In this document: positions 14,245-23,736 of the stretch, piece by piece
Numbering within the stretch: position 1 is the first letter of the stretch
How the letters are laid out: every line of letters starts with the position of its first letter
Assembly (NCBI GenBank): GCA_017935575.1
Contig: JAGBHI010000033.1
Location: 1-34,417, forward strand
Source of the DNA: Bacteroidales bacterium
GTDB taxonomy: Bacteria; Bacteroidota; Bacteroidia; Bacteroidales; G3-4614
DNA length: 34,417 bases
Reading direction: 5' to 3'
Notes under the pieces: model-generated
The model's input: the letters and a program-made list of their open reading frames with translations, nothing else
What the model was told of the DNA's origin: nothing
Databases searched by the model: none
Program-made: the position numbers and the translations under genes

Positions 14245-14434
14245 AGAGGGAGTCAAAATACAAAATTCTGAATTCAAAACTTTTAGTTTGTAAGTACCCT
14301 ATTTTAAAAATTTGAAAACGGCAAAGAAAAGTCCATCTCAAAGCCATATTTTGGACTAAGAGATGGACTTTTTAATTCTTAAGTTTCAAATTGTAAGATT
14401 TTCAAAGTGGCATTTGCATTTTGACACAGCCTCT
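14245..14434. repeat. possible MITE-like remnant with imperfect inverted ends
   Basis: A 190-base non-coding block. Its left end (14245-14264, AGAGGGAGTCAAAATACAAA) resembles the reverse complement of its right end (14413-14434, AGAGGCTGTGTCAAAATGCAAA read on the minus strand). The match is imperfect and includes a 2-base gap. The middle contains the strong hairpin at 14327-14372. No coding sequence is present. It could be a non-autonomous transposable element remnant or just a terminator region. Confidence 0.35.
14327..14372 (-). terminator. terminator of the eight-gene operon
   Basis: A perfect 13-bp stem (AAAAGTCCATCTC at 14327-14339 with GAGATGGACTTTT at 14360-14372) and a 20-base loop. 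It lies 118 bases past the last gene of the operon and just upstream of pdxB. On the minus strand a T-rich tail follows. Confidence 0.75.
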
Positions 14435-14489: not shown

Positions 14490-14837
14490 TTACATGCCTG
14501 CTCTATATATAGAATTATATATTAATAAATATATTAATAAAATAAGTCCGTTTATGATTATATAAACAGGTATTGAAAAATCAGCGAAAACAAAACAGCT
14601 ATTTGTAATGATTTCTACTATAAATGTTATCCACGAAACAATACTTAGCATTATAAGACTTCTCTCTTTTTCTGCACAAATACCCATAGCTAAAGTAAGG
14701 GGTATCGTTAAAGTAATAAAGCTTCCAATGGTGATAACCCATTTTACGTCATCTACGTTGCAAATTTCGTAGCACGCATAGGCAAGAATCACACCTATTG
14801 CAATTGCAATAATTGTTCTTAATAAATCTACTTTCAT
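14490..14837 (-). CDS. four-helix inner-membrane protein, unknown
   Basis: I do not recognise this 115-residue protein. It is almost wholly hydrophobic, with four predicted membrane helices, at about residues 7-24, 33-52, 62-80 and 87-110, and short loops. It is the last gene of the operon under the invertible segment, starting 4 bases after the GYF_2 gene, so translation is likely coupled. It may anchor the SPFH/GYF_2 proteins in the membrane; that is inference from context only. Confidence 0.7.
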   Translation of the reverse strand: MKVDLLRTIIAIAIGVILAYACYEICNVDDVKWVITIGSFITLTIPLTLAMGICAEKERSLIMLSIVSWITFIVEIITNSCFVFADFSIPVYIIINGLILLIYLLIYNSIYRAGM

Positions 14838-14841
14838 AATC

Positions 14842-15195
14842 TTATAGTGTTTTTGGTACAGGTGGAGGAGCCAAAGCTACAATTTTTAATACTTCGGGTA
14901 CAGACTCTATTGTCTTCCAACCACACATTCCTGGCATCCAAACCAATGTATTTTTATCTATCTTCTTTTGTGCAATTAAATGCATCATTTCTCCGTCGTT
15001 AAGTGGCCCAACAGGAGCATTATCTATTGCTACATAATAGACTTTTGATAAAACGGGCTGCATGCTGTTATCTACTCCGGGAATATGCATTGTTTTTATA
15101 CTCTCATTCATCACATTTATCATTTGACGAGCCATTCCTAGACCCAATCCAAACTCAACCAAGCGGTCAAGCGAGAAAAAATCATTATCACTCAT
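14842..15195 (-). CDS. GYF_2 domain protein with proline tail
   Basis: 117 residues from the ATG at 15195; the longer frame to 15258 would overlap the SPFH gene and adds a non-conserved stretch. Residues about 1-50 are helical and amphipathic. Residues about 52-105 form a GYF_2 domain (VYYVAIDNAPVGPLNDGEMMHLI...TLVWMPGMCGWKTIES), a fold linked to binding proline-rich peptides. The end, APPPVPKTL, is itself proline-rich. The same GYF_2 module closes the SPFH protein encoded 13 bases upstream, so the two probably act together. There is no signal peptide, so it should be cytoplasmic or at the inner membrane face. Confidence 0.85.
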   Translation of the reverse strand: MSDNDFFSLDRLVEFGLGLGMARQMINVMNESIKTMHIPGVDNSMQPVLSKVYYVAIDNAPVGPLNDGEMMHLIAQKKIDKNTLVWMPGMCGWKTIESVPEVLKIVALAPPPVPKTL

Positions 15196-15208
15196 ATCCT
15201 TATATTTT

Positions 15209-16567
15209 TTACTTTTGTGGTAATGGAGGAGGTTCAGAGCCCGGAACAGGTGGTGCAAAAAGTACTACTAATTCGGGTTGATTGCCTGCAAAGTCCCATG
15301 CAGACATTCCTTGTTTCCACACATAAGTTTGTTTTGTAATTTGGCCTACTTGCGCCATTTGTTGCATTTGCTGTATTGTAAATGGTCCACTTTGTACCCC
15401 ATTTAATGAAACGTGATACATTACTGTTGGCATAGGTGGGGGTGCATTGAACGATTGTTGCATCTGTTGACCCATATTGTTCATCATGCCACTCATTTGC
15501 TGGCCCATAGCTCCGCCCAACATCATACCAGTCATCATACCGGCAGGATTTAAGCCGCCTCCTTGGCCGCCACCATTAATATCAATATTCCCCATTGAGC
15601 CAAGATTTTCTGCTGCTGCTTTAAGCACTGATGTTTGTTGATCGAGAGCATGAGCACCAATAAAGTTAGACTCTGTTTGAAGGCGTTGAGATCGTTGCGA
15701 CTCCTCACGTTGTATTCGTAATGTTTCAGCCATATTCTCCGCATTGATACGTGAAGTTTCGGCAAGATTTTGAATATTAATCTCTGTTTGAGCATCAATT
15801 GTTTTTGTTTGTTGCTCAGCTGTTACTTTGCGTAGTTCAAGCCAACCTTCACTCTCTTTGTCAATCTCTATTGTGGAGATGTCACAACCGCGAACATTTA
15901 CATAAAAATTGTTTTTCAACTCGGTTACCAAGTAAGATTTAACAATATCGCTTATATCCATTATTCTACGTTCAAGTTGTAAAACAGGTATTTGATAATC
16001 TGATGGAGCGTTTGCAACAACTCCTTTTACTCGTTTTACAACCGCATCTTTTATCTTACTTTTGAGATCTTCAATTTCAAAGTTAATCAAGCGGTAGTGT
16101 TTTACGAACTCCTCATAATCTTCTATATTGAACGTAATTGTTCCTCGTACTGCCACAGGTACTCCAAAATCTAAAAAACGAGGGTCATAAACATCAAAAT
16201 ATGGCAAGCCAAATCTTATTTGTATAACATTTGAGATATTGATGAAATATATCTCTGCTTGGAATGGAGTATTACCTCCCCAAGCAAGGCCCACCAATTG
16301 GGTAAGTACCGGGAAGTTTGCTGATTCTATTTTTTTGTCATGCGGACCTACAATAAAATCTTGCATCTCTCCTCCGGGTTGTGAATATACAAATACGGCA
16401 ACCTCTCCGGATTTTACTCGCAATGAACTTCCGTAACGAATAGAATTCTCTTTTTTTGTAGAGTTAGCCTCGCCTGATGGACGCCATTTCCATACCAAAT
16501 ATTCTTGTTCATCACAGCGGATTACATCCATTAATCCGCCTTCTTTTTTACTACTAAAAAACCCCAT
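15209..16567 (-). CDS. SPFH/Band 7 protein with C-terminal GYF_2 domain
   Basis: 452 residues resembling the YdjI-type SPFH family (also annotated as virion core-like). Residues about 30-235 hold the SPFH domain (LRVKSGEVAVFVYSQPGGE, then FPVLTQLVGLAWGGNTPFQAEIYF and PVAVRGTITFNI). Residues about 240-300 are a Gln/Glu-rich coiled coil, and 320-370 are a Gly/Met/Gln-rich flexible stretch. A GYF_2 domain follows at about 375-430 (YHVSLNGVQSGPFTIQQM...YVWKQGMSAWDF), then a PPPLP-containing tail. SPFH proteins form membrane scaffolds, and relatives in Bacillus sit with zinc-ribbon proteins in membrane-stress operons. There is no obvious membrane helix. It is three bases from the zinc-ribbon gene. 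Confidence 0.9.
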   Translation of the reverse strand: MGFFSSKKEGGLMDVIRCDEQEYLVWKWRPSGEANSTKKENSIRYGSSLRVKSGEVAVFVYSQPGGEMQDFIVGPHDKKIESANFPVLTQLVGLAWGGNTPFQAEIYFINISNVIQIRFGLPYFDVYDPRFLDFGVPVAVRGTITFNIEDYEEFVKHYRLINFEIEDLKSKIKDAVVKRVKGVVANAPSDYQIPVLQLERRIMDISDIVKSYLVTELKNNFYVNVRGCDISTIEIDKESEGWLELRKVTAEQQTKTIDAQTEINIQNLAETSRINAENMAETLRIQREESQRSQRLQTESNFIGAHALDQQTSVLKAAAENLGSMGNIDINGGGQGGGLNPAGMMTGMMLGGAMGQQMSGMMNNMGQQMQQSFNAPPPMPTVMYHVSLNGVQSGPFTIQQMQQMAQVGQITKQTYVWKQGMSAWDFAGNQPELVVLFAPPVPGSEPPPLPQK

Positions 16568-16570
16568 AAT

Positions 16571-17590
16571 TTAGTATTTTATTCCGTTTTTTGTTAAAAA
16601 TTCTATTACAACAGGGTCGTTTGTTTGTAACGCACGACGATGCAAATTGTAATCATATCTCACAAATGAATTTGAATATTTACGATAAAATCGTAAAGCA
16701 TCATCATTACTCATCTCGATATATGCTTTTAACACAAAGACCAATGATTCAATATCTCTTGTGTTGATATATTGCTCTGCCTTAGTAATATCTCCATTTG
16801 CAAGATATTTCTTTACAAAAATTTGTTTTATTTTGTTCTCAACTTCGGTTTTTCTTTTAGCTGAGGCATATGAACTACAGTTTTTCAAAAGCAATTCGGC
16901 TTCAATCATTCTATCCTTATCAACAAGTTGCTTTATCAATTGCACATAGTCATCAGTGATAAGAGAGCCCATTTGAGGGTATTTATTGATATATTTTAAA
17001 GCCTTATCTACCTTCCCATCAACGACGGCTTCGTTAAAGCGTATGGCATACTTTTCAGGTGAAGTATTTTTTGCCGGTATAATTAGGATTAAAATAAAGA
17101 CTATCGTCAATATAAATAGAACTTTTGAGCGACTTGACATAAGATGCCACCAATTGAATATCTTTTTACCCGAAGCCTTTTTCAACTCCAACTCATAACG
17201 AGTTATGATGCTCAAATGTTTCTTATCTTCCTTACAAATTACTTTGGCTCTTTCAAAGACTTCGCGTTGTCTTGACCTCCATGCTAAAGAGATATTAGAG
17301 GTTTTTTCTAATGCCTTAGGCTGAATAAAGAACATAACATCTAAAATCTCATCTTTTAGGTGAGGAATTGGGAAATTACGTATAATCTCTATATATCGTT
17401 TGTTGTATTCTTTCCCGGTCAAAGAAGTTGCATTGAGGCTTTGAATACTGTCGTTAATATCCGACACTACTCGTGTGTTTATCTGCGTGAACGTATAACC
17501 GCAATCTGGGCATACAGCCACCATAGCCTCGCGTAATGCGCCACAAGCTGGACATTTGTTTATATATCCATTCATTGCCATATTATTCAA
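16571..17590 (-). CDS. zinc-ribbon membrane protein with helical-repeat C-terminus
   Basis: 339 residues. The N-terminus has a zinc ribbon, CPACG and CPDCG with a 13-residue gap (residues about 14-32). A basic, helical cytoplasmic part follows, then one membrane helix near 155-172 (VLFILTIVFILILIIPA). The C-terminal half is predicted all-helical with TPR-like spacing (FNEAVVDGKVDKALKYINKY, LVDKDRMIEAELLLKN, YLANGDITKAEQYINTRD). Zinc-ribbon plus membrane-anchor proteins often neighbour SPFH genes. It could pass signals across the membrane, but no enzymatic motif is present. The exact Met used (first, fourth or sixth residue) is uncertain. It starts three bases after the preceding gene. Confidence 0.8.
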   Translation of the reverse strand: MNNMAMNGYINKCPACGALREAMVAVCPDCGYTFTQINTRVVSDINDSIQSLNATSLTGKEYNKRYIEIIRNFPIPHLKDEILDVMFFIQPKALEKTSNISLAWRSRQREVFERAKVICKEDKKHLSIITRYELELKKASGKKIFNWWHLMSSRSKVLFILTIVFILILIIPAKNTSPEKYAIRFNEAVVDGKVDKALKYINKYPQMGSLITDDYVQLIKQLVDKDRMIEAELLLKNCSSYASAKRKTEVENKIKQIFVKKYLANGDITKAEQYINTRDIESLVFVLKAYIEMSNDDALRFYRKYSNSFVRYDYNLHRRALQTNDPVVIEFLTKNGIKY

Positions 17591-17593
17591 CTT

Positions 17594-18661
17594 TTATAAA
17601 AACCAAGTGCTAACCTTTTCTGCCACATCAGTTACAATAGAGGGCCCCTTTTTTAAGAATAACTCAGTATTTTTCTTTACCTCTTCAAGTGCCATTTGAG
17701 ATGCAAGAGAAGCATTGTCTGATTGACGCATTGCTAATTCATGGTTAAGATTCATTTTATCGCGTTGTAATTGTCGCTCCTCTGCCTCTACCATTACTTT
17801 GTATTCCCATTCGCGTTCTTTAACCATACGATTATAGGCTGCTATTTCTGCATAATGTGATTCAATCTGTTTTACAAGAGCATTTCCAGCCGCAGCACTA
17901 CTTGATAAAGGATTAATATTTGCCAAAAGATCTATGCACGCTTTAGCTCCTTCTTTACTCTTGTTGGTACTCCATGCAGCATTTGCTTGGTTGTAAAATT
18001 TAGCTCCTTCAACATCAATTTTCTTTTGATATACTATTGCAATCTCTTTCATCGCTTTAGTATAGGCCTCTTTACATACATCAGGAACACTTGCTAAAAG
18101 GTTCATAGCTCCCTCGTAATCCTCTTTGTCCGAAAGTGATTTTGCCTCGGCAAGCAGAAAATCTATCTGAGAATTATAATATTCTATTATTTTTTGCTTA
18201 CCATTATCAATAAATGTGGCTAATTCATTTTCACTTGCTTTTAAATTTTTAAAAGCGGCTAAATATGCGCGTTGGTCGTTTGTGCCAAGTCCTTTAACAG
18301 AATTATATGTGTATGTTGAAAATAGCTGACCAGAAATAGCATCTCCTATATAAATAGTTGTTGCCAATTCTACTGCTGTCATAGGAGGTGCGGTAGAAGT
18401 CATCTCCTTGTTTAGTAGGTTTACTGATGCAGTAATTACAAAACGAGGAGAAACTGTTGTTGATGCCATTCCATTTTTAGTAGCCATTTCTTTCAATTTT
18501 GATGAAAGAACTTTTCTAGCATATGATGGTATCCCCGACTCTTCAATAATAACAGGTGTTAGCGCAATCCTTCCTAAATCATCAGCTGCATTAAGATTAT
18601 TTTGAGCAAAAGAGTTTTGTAGTGATGCTAATGCAAACAGAATTATAATAATTCTTTTCAT
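17594..18661 (-). CDS. secreted protein with long coiled coil, unknown
   Basis: 355 residues from the ATG at 18661, chosen because it places a signal peptide first (MKRIIIILFALASLQNSFAQ). I do not recognise the family. The first 140 residues look like a mixed alpha/beta domain (RIALTPVIIEE, PRFVITASVNLL, ELATTIYIGDAISGQLFSTYTY), a pattern seen in periplasmic assembly-type lipoproteins. The rest is helical repeats and a charged coiled coil (residues about 265-330). The protein is probably periplasmic and may contact the other secreted products of the operon. Confidence 0.7.
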   Translation of the reverse strand: MKRIIIILFALASLQNSFAQNNLNAADDLGRIALTPVIIEESGIPSYARKVLSSKLKEMATKNGMASTTVSPRFVITASVNLLNKEMTSTAPPMTAVELATTIYIGDAISGQLFSTYTYNSVKGLGTNDQRAYLAAFKNLKASENELATFIDNGKQKIIEYYNSQIDFLLAEAKSLSDKEDYEGAMNLLASVPDVCKEAYTKAMKEIAIVYQKKIDVEGAKFYNQANAAWSTNKSKEGAKACIDLLANINPLSSSAAAGNALVKQIESHYAEIAAYNRMVKEREWEYKVMVEAEERQLQRDKMNLNHELAMRQSDNASLASQMALEEVKKNTELFLKKGPSIVTDVAEKVSTWFL

Positions 18662-18677
18662 AATGCTAATATTCTTT

Positions 18678-19628
18678 TTATTTACCTCCAATTACAATAG
18701 TTGCTTGACCAAGTCCTTTAGTCATAATTTTTGTTGTGATGCCGTATTTGTCGCGAAGCATTTTTGTTAAACCTCTAACCCATCTTCTAGCATCTATCGC
18801 TGTTCCTGATTCGTTAACCATGGGTATTCTTACATTACTGAAGACCATCATGTTCTCTGTTGCATTATCAGTAGTGAATTGACCTTTAACAGTATTGGCT
18901 CCAACCCAATCTTCAATTATGAATCCTAACTCTTCTCCATCAAACTCGCTCTCTAAATCGTATTCAGCATCTGACCAACGTTTTATTTGTAATTTTATTT
19001 GACGTCCATTCTCAAACCAATCGTTGAATTTGTTCAGCAATTGCTCATTAAAATTATCTAAATGCATTGTGACGCACTCCTCAAGTAGTACTGGAACTTC
19101 TGATGCATATGAGGGTTGACCTGTTCCTTGACAATTCGCAATTTGTTCATCGGTATAGGCGTCAACACCAGATAAGTTAAAAGTTAATGAAGTTTTTAAG
19201 CCTATGTTTTTAAGCCAATAAACTTCTAACCATATATCAGCTTTTGCTGTCTTTCTTAATTTGTCAATAGGGCTTTCTTCAACTCCTGCTCCGCCATCTT
19301 TAGACGACATCATCATCTCTTCTGTTGCTTCATTTTGTAGAGATTGTAGTGCTGATGACATCAAGCGAAGGTCAAAACCTCTATCAGACATCATTTGTCC
19401 AATTTTTGCTACTACTAAATGTAGCTCATTAGATGTATCAAATGCTTTTTGATAGTCAGGAATAAGCATCTTTTGACCCATATTATCATACTCAACCATG
19501 AAATTATTTTCTTGGCACCAAGTACGTGCAGGTACTACCATCAATGATGGTTTTTTGGCCGGGCCTTGACTAACAGCTGGCGTAATAGCTATAATTGCAA
19601 AGATTGCAATTAATATGCAACGTTTCAT
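18678..19628 (-). CDS. DUF6175 family secreted protein
   Basis: 316 residues from the ATG at 19628; this start gives the signal peptide MKRCILIAIFAIIAITPAVSQ and avoids overlap with the preceding gene. The mature start KKPSLMVVPARTWCQENNF and the segments IPDYQKAFDTSNELHLVVAKIGQMMSDRGFDL and KADIWLEVYWLK match DUF6175, a Bacteroidetes family of unknown function. The fold looks like a mixed alpha/beta periplasmic domain. A second domain (about 215-310) ends GLGQATIVIGGK. Its place between two other secreted proteins points to a common periplasmic complex. Confidence 0.8.
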   Translation of the reverse strand: MKRCILIAIFAIIAITPAVSQGPAKKPSLMVVPARTWCQENNFMVEYDNMGQKMLIPDYQKAFDTSNELHLVVAKIGQMMSDRGFDLRLMSSALQSLQNEATEEMMMSSKDGGAGVEESPIDKLRKTAKADIWLEVYWLKNIGLKTSLTFNLSGVDAYTDEQIANCQGTGQPSYASEVPVLLEECVTMHLDNFNEQLLNKFNDWFENGRQIKLQIKRWSDAEYDLESEFDGEELGFIIEDWVGANTVKGQFTTDNATENMMVFSNVRIPMVNESGTAIDARRWVRGLTKMLRDKYGITTKIMTKGLGQATIVIGGK

Positions 19629-19638
19629 ATTTTTAATT

Positions 19639-20169
19639 TTAATTAAAACCATGGCTAAGTGATTTGATGATACCACATTGCTCAAGATACTTTCTAAGAG
19701 CAGCTATTTCAACCATAACGACAACACCAACTTTATATTTCATATCTTTTTTGCCATAGTTGATAATATCTGCTAATCCGCTATTAGATATTCTTGCGAA
19801 GCGTTTGTATTCTCCACCTTCAGCAAAGAATTTTTTAAAGAAATCAGCATGTTTCTCTTCCAATATAGGATCTTGTAATAAAGGTTTTAGCGGTGTTATG
19901 CGTTTTTCTTTATTTGCAGGAGCTCCTTGAAATACAATTGCGTGGACAGCGTTCTTTTTAGCTTGCTCTTCAGCAATAAATGTGTTTTTTGAAAAGCTCC
20001 ATACTTTTAATAAATAGTTACCTGACGCATTCTTTGCGGTAGTCTCTACTTCATAGTTCCATGTGGCAGTATGTTCGTCAGCTTTCTTTTTTTGGCTTTT
20101 TGTGCCAGCACAAACAGTATTACCTGCAATAAGTAATACCAATACGAATAGGCTTAATATCTTTTTCAT
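19639..20169 (-). CDS. secreted protein, unknown
   Basis: 176 residues with a signal peptide (MKKILSLFVLVLLIAGNTVCAG). The mature part starts with a basic KSQKKKAD stretch followed by a strand-rich segment (TWNYEVETTAKNASGNYLLKVWSFSK) and an alternating helix-strand region ending KVGVVVMVEIAALRKYLEQCG. I do not recognise the family. It lies 23 bases after the first gene of the operon and 10 bases before DUF6175, so all are one transcript. Confidence 0.72.
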   Translation of the reverse strand: MKKILSLFVLVLLIAGNTVCAGTKSQKKKADEHTATWNYEVETTAKNASGNYLLKVWSFSKNTFIAEEQAKKNAVHAIVFQGAPANKEKRITPLKPLLQDPILEEKHADFFKKFFAEGGEYKRFARISNSGLADIINYGKKDMKYKVGVVVMVEIAALRKYLEQCGIIKSLSHGFN

Positions 20170-20192
20170 ATATTATAGTATAAATAGGTTTA

Positions 20193-21518
20193 TTATTTTT
20201 TTGTTTGGCGAATTAACATTCCTGGTGCTGCATTTTTAGGCACTTTACCTTTGAAAGTTGTAAATGTATTTGTTGATGCATTTTCATCATCATTATCTTC
20301 ACCCATATTATTACCTACGGTATCTACTTTAATTTTTCCTATAACTTTATATGTCTCTTTTTGAGTTTTTGGATCAATCTGACGCATCAATATTTCATAT
20401 TTGTCTCCCTCTTCTATGCACTCTTTTGTTCCAATATTTGCAGTCATATTTGGCTCTATTGTTGCCAATGGAGTCTTTGTACGGAATACTTCGTATTCTC
20501 TTTCAAGTTTAGATAAAACTTTGTCCAATGCTCTAGATGTTGCTTTCTTAACAGCTTCTTCTTGTGAATATTTTTTTGCTGCTACCGAGCAATAAGCTTT
20601 TTCGCTACCAATGTAATCTAACTCAAAGCAATCAAGAGCGTTAAATTTTTCAATTTCTGGAGCTTTGTTAATAGCGTTAAATATCTCTTCATTCCATCTT
20701 AAACGATATAGATATGTTGTTGAATATACAAAATATCCTCCTCTTGCAGTAATTGCCATTCCTGCTCCCTCTGCGGCTGTCATAGCTATTTGTTGTGCTG
20801 TTGGAATAGGTATTAAGCTTGCTGCCATTTTAGCGTAAGCTACAACTTCAGCAGCCAAATCTTCTGCTGATAAATAGCGGAAGCGTGTTACAGGTACGAA
20901 TGTATTTCCTACGATTTCATCTCCTCCGTTATCCATAAGGTATTCTATAGGTGAGCGTCCTGTTGTTGCTTCTTCAGCTGCGACTTTTTCAAGTTCAGTG
21001 GCATTCCATGCAACTCGTTCATGCAATAGGTTAGTGTTGATAGTTGCGTTATCTGGATTATCTGCACCCCACCATCTTGCCATTAATTTTTTAGCAAATT
21101 CTTTGTCTTGCAAATATTTGTATGCAACATAAGGAGCCTCATCTTTGTTTGGGTCAAGAGCAAGAATTTCTGCTGCATAATCTTTTGCAATATTAGCTAT
21201 AGCTGATTGCTCCTTTTTTCCTGTCAATGCGTTATATGCCTTTTTGTCGGCATCAGTAACTGTTACGTCAGAGTATGAGAATGTGCATATTGATTTATCA
21301 ATACCATGATCATTATATTTTGGGGGCATAGGATTATTAATAAATGCCTCTTTTACTAATCCTGCAACAGATGCATCTAAATTTGGATCTTCAAGCATAA
21401 CCATGCAAAGTGAGCTACGACGATATTGCTCTGAAATTTCTCGTTTTTTAACTTGTGCGGTTAAACTGAATACAGAAAGAGTTACAAATAAAACTCCCAA
21501 AAACAAATTCTTTTTCAT
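20193..21518 (-). CDS. secreted protein, first gene of the phase-variable operon, unknown
   Basis: 441 residues with a signal peptide (MKKNLFLGVLFVTLSVFSLTAQ). I do not recognise the family. The mature protein starts with RRSSLCMVMLEDPNLDASVAGLVKEAF, has a helical middle with an Ala/Met/Ile-rich stretch (about 215-250) and an aromatic TTYLYRLRW segment. A C-terminal beta-rich domain (about 340-441) carries an acidic insert (NMGEDNDDEN). It is probably periplasmic or surface-exposed. Its ATG is 64 bases from the left inverted repeat of the invertible segment, so a promoter facing left from that segment would drive it directly. Confidence 0.75.
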   Translation of the reverse strand: MKKNLFLGVLFVTLSVFSLTAQVKKREISEQYRRSSLCMVMLEDPNLDASVAGLVKEAFINNPMPPKYNDHGIDKSICTFSYSDVTVTDADKKAYNALTGKKEQSAIANIAKDYAAEILALDPNKDEAPYVAYKYLQDKEFAKKLMARWWGADNPDNATINTNLLHERVAWNATELEKVAAEEATTGRSPIEYLMDNGGDEIVGNTFVPVTRFRYLSAEDLAAEVVAYAKMAASLIPIPTAQQIAMTAAEGAGMAITARGGYFVYSTTYLYRLRWNEEIFNAINKAPEIEKFNALDCFELDYIGSEKAYCSVAAKKYSQEEAVKKATSRALDKVLSKLEREYEVFRTKTPLATIEPNMTANIGTKECIEEGDKYEILMRQIDPKTQKETYKVIGKIKVDTVGNNMGEDNDDENASTNTFTTFKGKVPKNAAPGMLIRQTKK

Positions 21519-21582
21519 AATTTCGGTTTATTAAAAATTAATATTGTTGATATAAATTATTATAATTGATTCATACATAAAA

Positions 21583-21774
21583 TCTCTTCCTAAGAGACAA
21601 ATCATGCAATGATATTATATTATAATTTAGATATTTGGAGTTTTATATAAGTATTAAATTTTGAATATTTATATACATTTTGTTGCATAACTTTAAAAAA
21701 ATTCAGATAATTGTGTTTCTATTTGCAATATTTTATATAATTTCGCATTGCATGATTTGTCTCTTAGGAAGAGA
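21583..21774. repeat. invertible segment: perfect 29-bp inverted repeats around 134 bp
   Basis: The left arm, 21583-21611, is exactly the reverse complement of the right arm, 21746-21774, over 29 bases; both flanking positions stop matching at once. Each arm starts with its own small palindrome, CTCTTCCTAAGAG, a plausible recombinase half-site. The 134 bases between are extremely AT-rich and non-coding. The block lies between a tyrosine recombinase gene and the head of an operon, the arrangement of phase-variable promoters in Bacteroidetes. Confidence 0.9.
21716..21745 (+). promoter_or_regulatory. candidate promoter inside the invertible segment, facing away from the operon
   Basis: TTTC at 21716-21719, an 18-base spacer and TAATTTCG at 21738-21745, abutting the right repeat. 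Each box is one base off consensus. No comparable motif reads the other way within the segment or in the 64 bases before the operon. After inversion this motif would sit beside the left repeat and fire into the operon. A second, poorer box (TAACTTTA at 21688) reads the same way. Confidence 0.4.
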
Positions 21775-21814
21775 ACAATCTTTTTATTTAATCTCACTCT
21801 CGATGTATAAATGG

Positions 21815-23014
21815 TTATAAATCCTTTAAGATTTTCAAATTAGCATTATCAACTATTTTAGTGTCAAGAGAAGCTAAGTATATTTGTGTTGTTAATTCTG
21901 AATTATGTCCCATACCCTCGCTGATTATGGATATTGGTATGTTTTTATCCCTCGCTATACTTGCCCAAGAATGACGAGCTACGTACATTGTTAATGGGAG
22001 TTGGCAACCTATTTTTATGCCTAATATTTTAAGTTTCTTATTTATTAAATACATGGCATTCTGATATTGTCTCCGTTCATCTTTATTAGTGGGTTTTATG
22101 ATTGGAAGCAGATATTCCGATAGAGGATTATTATATTTACTCACTATCTCTTGCATACATTTTTCCCAACGAATAAAAAGTTGTTTTCCTGTCTTACGTC
22201 TATAATATGACAGAGTACCATTTGATAAGTTGATTTTTTTTAAGTAGGCCATATCAATAAACGACATACCTCTGGTATAAAACGAAAATAGGAACATGTC
22301 TCGAGCAAAATCTTGTGAGGAATATGGTAATAGGTCAAGAGTTTTAATTTTTTTAATTAGTTCTAATGAAATTGCTCGTTTTTTTGTCTTGTCAATACCT
22401 GTGTAAACGTGTTTAAATGGTTTTAGATCATAGATCAGCTCCTCTCTCACAATCCTATTATATACGGCTCTCAATATCCTCATATAAAATGAGATGCTGT
22501 TTTTAGTTAGCCATTTTTTAGATAAATAGGCTTCGTACATTTGCATCATTGACGAATCAATTTCTTCAAACAAAACATCTTTGCCTTCTCGAAATTGCAT
22601 AAAACTTTTTAAGGTTGAGATATATGTTTCAGATGTCCGATACTTTCCTATTTGTCTAAACTGCTCAATAATTCTCTGCATATAACTGAATAACGATAGC
22701 TCATAAGCTCTTTCTTTAAATGCTAAAATAATATCATCAGCAGTATATTTTATATGTTTGCTATCAAACCGCTCTATTATACATTTAAATCTTTTAATAT
22801 CCCAATCAATAAGTTCTTCTATTATTTTTAAATGATTTCTTCTGCCTTCATTGGTTGTATGAGGCTCTTTTGCTCGCTCCTTCCACTCATATTCAAATAA
22901 TTGATAATTGGTCCTTAAATGCCGCGATACACGGTCTTTAATTACTTGATAATAAACTAATCCTTCCTTGCCTGATACAATTGAGGTTCTAAATCTTACT
23001 TTTATGGTTGCCAT
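21815..23014 (-). CDS. tyrosine recombinase, probable DNA invertase
   Basis: 399 residues from the ATG at 23014 (MATIKVRFRTSI, the usual start in this family); a further ATG 36 bases upstream gives a hydrophobic, atypical extension. The N-terminal arm domain covers about 1-95 and the SAM-like core-binding domain about 105-200. The catalytic domain has R248 (YTRGMSFIDMAYL), K274 (YRRKTGKQ), R347 in YVARHSW, H370 in GMGHNSE and nucleophile Y379 in QIYLAS. This matches Bacteroidetes site-specific recombinases that act on invertible promoters. The gene is chromosomal, with no phage or transposon genes near, and ends 41 bases from a 29-bp inverted repeat, its likely substrate. It could instead be an orphan integrase, but the repeats argue against that. 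Confidence 0.92.
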   Translation of the reverse strand: MATIKVRFRTSIVSGKEGLVYYQVIKDRVSRHLRTNYQLFEYEWKERAKEPHTTNEGRRNHLKIIEELIDWDIKRFKCIIERFDSKHIKYTADDIILAFKERAYELSLFSYMQRIIEQFRQIGKYRTSETYISTLKSFMQFREGKDVLFEEIDSSMMQMYEAYLSKKWLTKNSISFYMRILRAVYNRIVREELIYDLKPFKHVYTGIDKTKKRAISLELIKKIKTLDLLPYSSQDFARDMFLFSFYTRGMSFIDMAYLKKINLSNGTLSYYRRKTGKQLFIRWEKCMQEIVSKYNNPLSEYLLPIIKPTNKDERRQYQNAMYLINKKLKILGIKIGCQLPLTMYVARHSWASIARDKNIPISIISEGMGHNSELTTQIYLASLDTKIVDNANLKILKDL

Positions 23015-23065
23015 AGTTTTGTAATTATAAAAAAAGAAAATAACAACCAAATAGAGTGCTTAAAA

Positions 23066-23096
23066 TTGTAAAATTGTAAAACATTTATTTACTTTG
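23066..23096 (+). promoter_or_regulatory. promoter of the DUF4254-LPS core operon
   Basis: TTG at 23066-23068, a 20-base spacer and TTACTTTG at 23089-23096, one base from TAnnTTTG. It lies 34 bases before the DUF4254 start codon, in the region shared with the divergent recombinase gene. Confidence 0.55.
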
Positions 23097-23130
23097 CAAA
23101 ATATAACATTGAAAAAATAGAAGAACTGAT

Positions 23131-23736
23131 ATGACCTTTACTGAGAAAAGCAACCGAATATTCTGGAACGTATGTCTTGATTATCATAAACATGATGATG
23201 TTGATGCTTGTATGCAAAACCCATATGAGGCCTCAACAATTGAGTATTCATTATACAAGAAGTGTTGGATTGATGCTGTACAATGGCATCTTGAAGATAT
23301 AATACGTAATCCCGAAATTGAGCCAATAACAGCTCTTTACATTAAAAGACGTATTGATAAGTCAAATCAAGACAGAACCGACTTGGTGGAGGCAATAGAT
23401 AGTTTTTTCCGTGATAAATATAAAGATGTTAAGGTCTTGCCAGAGGCAACAATCAATACCGAAAGTCCTGCATGGGCTATTGACCGTTTGTCAATTCTTG
23501 CATTAAAAATTTATCACATGCAACAAGAGGTTGAGCGTACTGATGCTTCTGTTGAGCACATTGCAAAGTGTAAAGCTAAATTAGATGTCTTATTGGAACA
23601 GAGAGTTGATTTGTCATCGGCAATTGATACTCTGTTGGTCGATATAGAAGGGGGTAGAAAATATATGAAGGTATATCGTCAAATGAAAATGTATAACGAC
23701 CCCGAAACAAATCCTGTATTGTACGGGAAAAAATAA
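23131..23736 (+). CDS. DUF4254 domain protein
   Basis: 201 residues, all-helical, without signal peptide or membrane helix. The motifs YHKHDDVDA, PYEASTIEYSLYKKCWIDAVQWHLEDIIRNP, the long helix around LYIKRRIDKSNQDRTDLVE and TESPAWAIDRLSILALKIYHM are typical of DUF4254. The family usually sits directly before a heptosyltransferase and an LPS kinase in Bacteroidetes, as here (next gene 7 bases on). It is therefore probably concerned with LPS core synthesis, but its biochemical role is unknown. Confidence 0.88.
   Translation: MTFTEKSNRIFWNVCLDYHKHDDVDACMQNPYEASTIEYSLYKKCWIDAVQWHLEDIIRNPEIEPITALYIKRRIDKSNQDRTDLVEAIDSFFRDKYKDVKVLPEATINTESPAWAIDRLSILALKIYHMQQEVERTDASVEHIAKCKAKLDVLLEQRVDLSSAIDTLLVDIEGGRKYMKVYRQMKMYNDPETNPVLYGKK

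Follow-up and report, generated by a model that had tools for sequence, protein, structure and literature searches.

We analyzed a 34,417-nucleotide stretch of DNA (hereafter the window), which is a whole contig (C58; JAGBHI010000033.1) of the 2.03-Mb draft genome of a gut bacterium of the order Bacteroidales (GCA_017935575.1). Between positions 14490 and 23014, the window carries a tyrosine recombinase gene, a short segment enclosed by inverted repeats, and an eight-gene operon encoding, among others, an SPFH and a DUF6175 protein. A first-pass annotation of this DNA had proposed that the recombinase flips a promoter located in the segment in front of the operon. Comparison with related loci strongly supports this proposal.

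Layout of the recombinase, the inverted repeats, and the operon

The recombinase gene (21815–23014, minus strand) encodes a predicted invertase of 399 amino acids with SAM-like and Phage_integrase matches in Pfam. The five catalytic residues named in the first-pass annotation (R248, K274, R347, H370, and Y379) are all present and are invariant across nine relatives. The box-II histidine position is occupied by Y344, which is also invariant in the nine relatives. Judged by its sequence, the recombinase is intact.

The two repeat arms are 29 bp long and perfectly complementary (29/29). The left arm (21583–21611, plus strand) is distal to the recombinase and faces the operon, and the right arm (21746–21774, minus strand) is proximal to the recombinase. 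Both arms contain the internal palindrome TCTCTTCCTAAGAGA, which we refer to as the palindromic core. The predicted invertible segment between them (21612–21745) spans 134 bp, 114 of which are A or T (85% A+T), as the first-pass annotation had described. In 60 Markov-shuffled windows, the longest perfect inverted repeat with arms no more than 1.5 kb apart was 16 bp, versus the 29 bp observed. The arm 29-mer is unique in the genome, even when up to three mismatches are allowed. A gap of 40 bp (and not 41, as first given) separates the right arm from the recombinase stop codon on its right, and one of 64 bp separates the left arm from the first operon ATG on its left. We found no terminator-like hairpin in 21300–22100, a stretch that covers the region between recombinase and operon, which leaves room for read-through from the recombinase gene.

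The operon that starts 64 bp from the left arm does comprise eight co-directional open reading frames, and the gaps between them are about 25 nt or less when the likely starts are used. The first-pass annotation had seen no other promoter for these genes. In agreement with this, the operon sense strand contains no TAnnTTTG box from about 16085 to 23200, and none of the first six operon genes has another such box.

A family of related recombinase–promoter loci

We searched the recombinase against related and named public genomes and recovered about 90 loci. Of the named loci, 72 have 390 nt or more of sequence downstream; in 48 of these, an inverted-repeat pair lies closely 3′ of the recombinase stop codon, usually about 30 nt past the stop and with a gap of about 150 nt. 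We left L146 and L161 out of the set of switches, as the repeats there are long and unrelated. We added seven further segments to the 48 (one from the window, two from elsewhere in its genome, and four from other genomes), giving a set of 55. A palindromic core similar to TCTCTTnnTAAGAGA, with five or six of its six pairs intact, is present in 53 of these 55 segments. Distant tyrosine recombinases served as a comparison: only 2 of 21 reached the repeat score, and those two repeats are weak, lie more than 300 nt away, and lack the core. A motif scan for a serine recombinase adjoining the family recombinases (compare mpi/tsr19 of B. fragilis) found none.

The segments also share a promoter. A perfect outward TAnnTTTG box lies near an arm in 44 of the 55, versus a mean of 4.1 and a maximum of 10 when the segments are shuffled, and the distance from this −7 box to the core is nearly always 13–15 nt. 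Nearly all loci with enough sequence have a gene in the reading direction after the distal arm. We call a segment ON when its promoter faces this target and OFF when it faces the recombinase; by a simple promoter rule, 42 segments were assembled OFF and 13 ON. Three pairs of homologous loci from other species (L121/L137, L127/L134, and L135/L140) are colinear except for the segment, which is inverted. Such opposite orientations show that inversion happens in the family; for the window copy itself, we infer both inversion and promoter activity from its likeness to these relatives.

Two more switch copies are found in the same genome as the window (L053:9820–10001 and L054:8779–8981). As for the orientation of the further copies in this genome, that on C92 appears to be ON, toward a small lipoprotein gene, and that on C81 OFF, toward a cluster with several radical-SAM genes.

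The segment is assembled in the OFF orientation

The simple promoter rule combined with the core distance gave a tie for the window, because a second candidate box (TATCATTG) lies on the opposite side of the segment. We therefore scored the segment with a weight matrix built from 39 other family members; the window was not in the training set, and each member tested was always left out. All 39 left-out cases were assigned correctly. On the window segment, the profile gave +20.9 bits for TAATTTCG, which faces the recombinase, versus −9.8 bits for the best operon-facing site, and thus broke the tie. The predicted −7 box TAATTTCG (21738–21745, plus strand) has one mismatch to TAnnTTTG and points right, toward the recombinase, 14 nt from the right-arm core. 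Therefore, by this profile, the assembly shows the segment in its OFF form with respect to the operon.

Taken together, these results suggest that the locus is a local phase-variation switch in which the recombinase inverts a promoter segment and toggles the eight-gene operon; we put the probability of this reading at about 0.88. It is favored because the relatives show a conserved site, a promoter at a fixed distance from it, both orientations, and a constant place 3′ of the same recombinase clade. In the proposed mechanism, the recombinase would bind the cores in both 29-bp arms and invert the 134-bp segment, which carries a single outward promoter of the Bacteroidota type. With the promoter pointing leftward (ON), transcription of the eight genes would begin within the left arm or close beside it. 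With the promoter pointing rightward, as assembled (OFF), it would fire into the recombinase gene from its 3′ end, leaving the operon with no recognizable promoter. ON cells, a part of the population, may then gain an additional envelope complex made of a secreted CsgG/FlgT-like module and a cytoplasmic or inner-membrane SPFH–GYF–zinc-ribbon module of the YdjI type.

Several observations weigh against this interpretation. This organism is represented by one assembly, in which a single orientation is seen. The −7 box of the window departs from the consensus by one base (TTCG for TTTG), and it has no clear −33 TTTG element 19–21 nt upstream; the family alignment likewise has no strong column at the −33 TTTG position. 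The 55 segments are not independent, several being near-identical. Finally, with no terminator in between, read-through could yield some operon expression whichever way the segment is oriented.

The imperfect −7 box and the OFF orientation could also mean that the locus is a former switch locked OFF, in which repeats and recombinase persist and either inversion or the promoter is dead. We consider this improbable. Decay would erode both the repeats and the recombinase, yet the arms are identical at every position and the catalytic residues are intact. The same TAATTTCG box is also found in other members (L182 and beside the recombinase of G028:C1). Moreover, OFF is the assembled state of 42 of 55 family members and also predominates in reads of related switches, the invertible promoters that control Bacteroidales resistance genes (PMC8748976), so OFF is the usual state of such switches and not a sign of decay.

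A segment that chiefly controls the recombinase, through an antisense RNA over the 3′ end of its gene, with the operon expressed by read-through, would account for an assembled promoter that faces this 3′ end and for the missing terminator between recombinase and operon. This explanation is less probable still: among family members the target side varies but segment and recombinase are retained, nearly all loci that are long enough have an in-direction gene after the distal arm, and homologous loci in which the promoter faces the target exist.

The probable switch and its operon form an island

In the genomes G002, G003, G005, G006, and G007, pdxB directly adjoins the counterpart of the window gene at 23131–23736. 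The window has about 9 kb between these two genes, made up of the recombinase, segment, and operon. By this comparison of gene order, the recombinase–segment–operon unit is an island that is absent from five sister species. An approximately 120-nt repeat (14314–14434), which contains an internal hairpin and has a GAGGCTGTGTCAAAA end, lies at the left edge of the island; copies or fragments of it are present on at least five other contigs, and it resembles a small transposable element or the end of an insertion sequence. The island and this dispersed repeat could suggest that the 29-bp repeats serve a mobile element as attachment or integration sites and are no switch at all, but the repeats are inverted, 134 bp apart, inside the island rather than at its ends, and hold a promoter at a fixed spacing across the family, which makes this the least probable of the explanations.

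In another sister species (G004), a recombinase 63% identical to that of the window lies beside the same gene, and the contig ends within the arm (TCTCTTAAAAAGAGA). The pdxB gene of G004 is on a separate contig, where the genes before it are different and encode a repeat protein and a 944-amino-acid lipoprotein-like protein. Elsewhere, cassettes with 82–95% identical DNA are followed by different genes, and homology stops at the distal arm or within about 10 nt of it. The recombinase–segment cassettes of Bacteroides sp. An322 (L110:6778–8190) and Parabacteroides faecalis (L117:8001–9413), for example, are 95% identical; they are homologous only up to the outer edge of the distal repeat and carry different cargo.

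The cargo of the family includes type ISP and Eco57I-type restriction enzymes, helicases, HerA, NusG-like capsule regulators, DUF3575 proteins, a TonB receptor, radical-SAM clusters, and a dynamin-like GTPase. We looked for the cargo of the window behind the approximately 90 related recombinases and found it behind none of them. The named relative closest to the recombinase (67% identity; L103:9452–14248) has a segment that precedes an operon with a dynamin-like GTPase. Two further switches (L133:1784–5155 and L136:9478–12548) precede operons with a protein that starts MAKxxxxGIGGTGxR; these proteins are possibly tubulin/FtsZ-like, and that of L133 has no Pfam match.

Because the L110 and L117 cassettes are nearly identical up to the outer edge of the distal repeat, and because two sister species share a chromosomal site and a related recombinase and differ in cargo, one may speculate that recombinase, segment, and promoter form a portable switch cassette. 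The distal repeat would then be a natural join for varied cargo, perhaps through recombination at the repeat. It is similarly conceivable, if doubtful, that the cargo joined in this way ranges over restriction systems, capsules, fimbriae, and, here, a hybrid SPFH/DUF6175 envelope operon.

The operon joins two gene modules

All eight operon genes lie on the minus strand. Gene 1 (20193–21518) encodes an exported protein of 441 amino acids and gene 2 (19639–20169) a small exported protein of 176 amino acids that is a conserved partner of DUF6175; the label LPP20-like, considered for gene 2, had no Pfam support and was dropped. Gene 3 (18678–19685, likely start 19628) encodes the exported DUF6175 protein. 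Gene 4 (17594–18691, likely start 18661) encodes an exported protein whose relatives have TPR-like matches. Gene 5 (16571–17590) encodes a 339-amino-acid zinc-ribbon protein with a hydrophobic stretch. Gene 6 (15209–16567) encodes an SPFH protein of the YdjI family (Band_7_1, PF13421, E = 5e-24) with a C-terminal GYF_2 domain, gene 7 (14842–15258, likely start 15195) a GYF_2 protein, and gene 8 (14490–14837) a 115-amino-acid membrane protein that is conserved beside SPFH/GYF genes elsewhere.

Genes 1–4 form a conserved module: DUF6175 is present in 65 of 295 sampled genomes of the order, about a fifth. Among 18 DUF6175 operons elsewhere, none is preceded by an inverted repeat of more than 12 bp, and in 11 a perfect TAnnTTTG box points toward the genes. 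Genes 5–8 (zinc ribbon, SPFH–GYF, GYF, and small membrane protein) form a second module, which occurs without genes 1–4 in G172, G019, G157, and G190. We saw the two modules joined only in the window. The genome, which is 89% complete, shows only one DUF6175 gene, at this locus (14490–21518). Its product is about 50% identical to proteins of distant families versus 43–45% to the copies of sister species, which suggests acquisition from elsewhere.

Structure models gave no more than leads to the function of genes 1 and 3. The DUF6175 model (mean predicted local distance difference test [pLDDT] score of 86) resembles the periplasmic domains of GNA1162, CsgG, and PelC (Foldseek E = 2e-4 for GNA1162), and the model of gene 1 (pLDDT 73) has FlgT as its weak best fold match (Foldseek E = 1e-5). 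All of these matches have low TM-scores, about 0.2–0.3 by query length. Sequence profiles of genes 1–4 found no convincing relative in the PDB, and gene 6 had a single weak match there, to its GYF domain. Among the eight operon proteins, there was no PADLOC match to a defense system and no PspA-like match. As far as these models go, the operon resembles a CsgG/FlgT-like secreted module joined to a YdjI-like SPFH/GYF module. Its role might be envelope maintenance or remodeling, a tentative assignment that is the least secure part of our reading and falls somewhat short of even odds.

Discussion

The comparison refines the first-pass annotation in three respects: the segment is assembled OFF, which had gone unseen; the operon consists of two joined modules; and the whole unit is an island. 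Promoter inversion is an established mechanism in the Bacteroidales (PMC4747536, PMC8748976, PMC11892184). The first-pass annotation knew of no such switch on an SPFH/GYF_2/zinc-ribbon operon, and our search of a library of 5.4 million papers agrees: it found no switch of this kind on an SPFH or DUF6175 operon, no mention of DUF6175, and nothing that brings SPFH together with invertible phase variation. The locus would thus pair an established type of switch with a new kind of target. If so, the reversible DNA switches of the Bacteroidales extend beyond capsules, pili, nutrient receptors, and resistance genes to an operon that looks like envelope machinery. DUF6175 operons elsewhere have no invertible segment and often an ordinary promoter box, so the presence of a switch here suggests that expression is costly yet occasionally beneficial. 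The fixed 14-nt spacing between −7 box and core also provides a sequence rule with which to find such switches and to call them ON or OFF from a single assembly.

A close parallel in layout is Tsr19 (BF2766) of B. fragilis and its invertible promoter IVp-I, whose orientation controls polysaccharide and vesicle production (PMC4747536). As predicted for the window, a tyrosine recombinase lies directly upstream of an invertible TAnnTTTG promoter, inverted repeats, and an operon. The cargo is different, extracellular polysaccharide genes there and an SPFH/DUF6175 operon here. Tsr19 also flips a distant promoter (PMC4747536), whereas the window assembly contains no second copy of the repeat. The invertible promoters of Bacteroidales resistance genes share with the window an invertase immediately upstream, a −7 TANNTTTGY box, variable cargo behind a conserved invertase and promoter, and a mostly OFF state (PMC8748976). 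However, those switches drive glycan and resistance genes from conjugative elements, whereas the predicted switch of the window lies between housekeeping genes.

The products of the operon recall two other systems. CsgG/FlgT-type assemblies are similar at the level of fold, through gene 3 (CsgG, GNA1162, and PelC) and gene 1 (FlgT), with low TM-scores and no sequence similarity found. In B. subtilis, the SPFH protein YdjI links PspA to the membrane via YdjG/H (PMC8581546), and the window likewise has a Band_7_1 SPFH protein beside a zinc-ribbon protein. Unlike the YdjI system, the operon of the window has no PspA-like gene, includes GYF domains and a secreted DUF6175 module, and appears to be controlled by DNA inversion.

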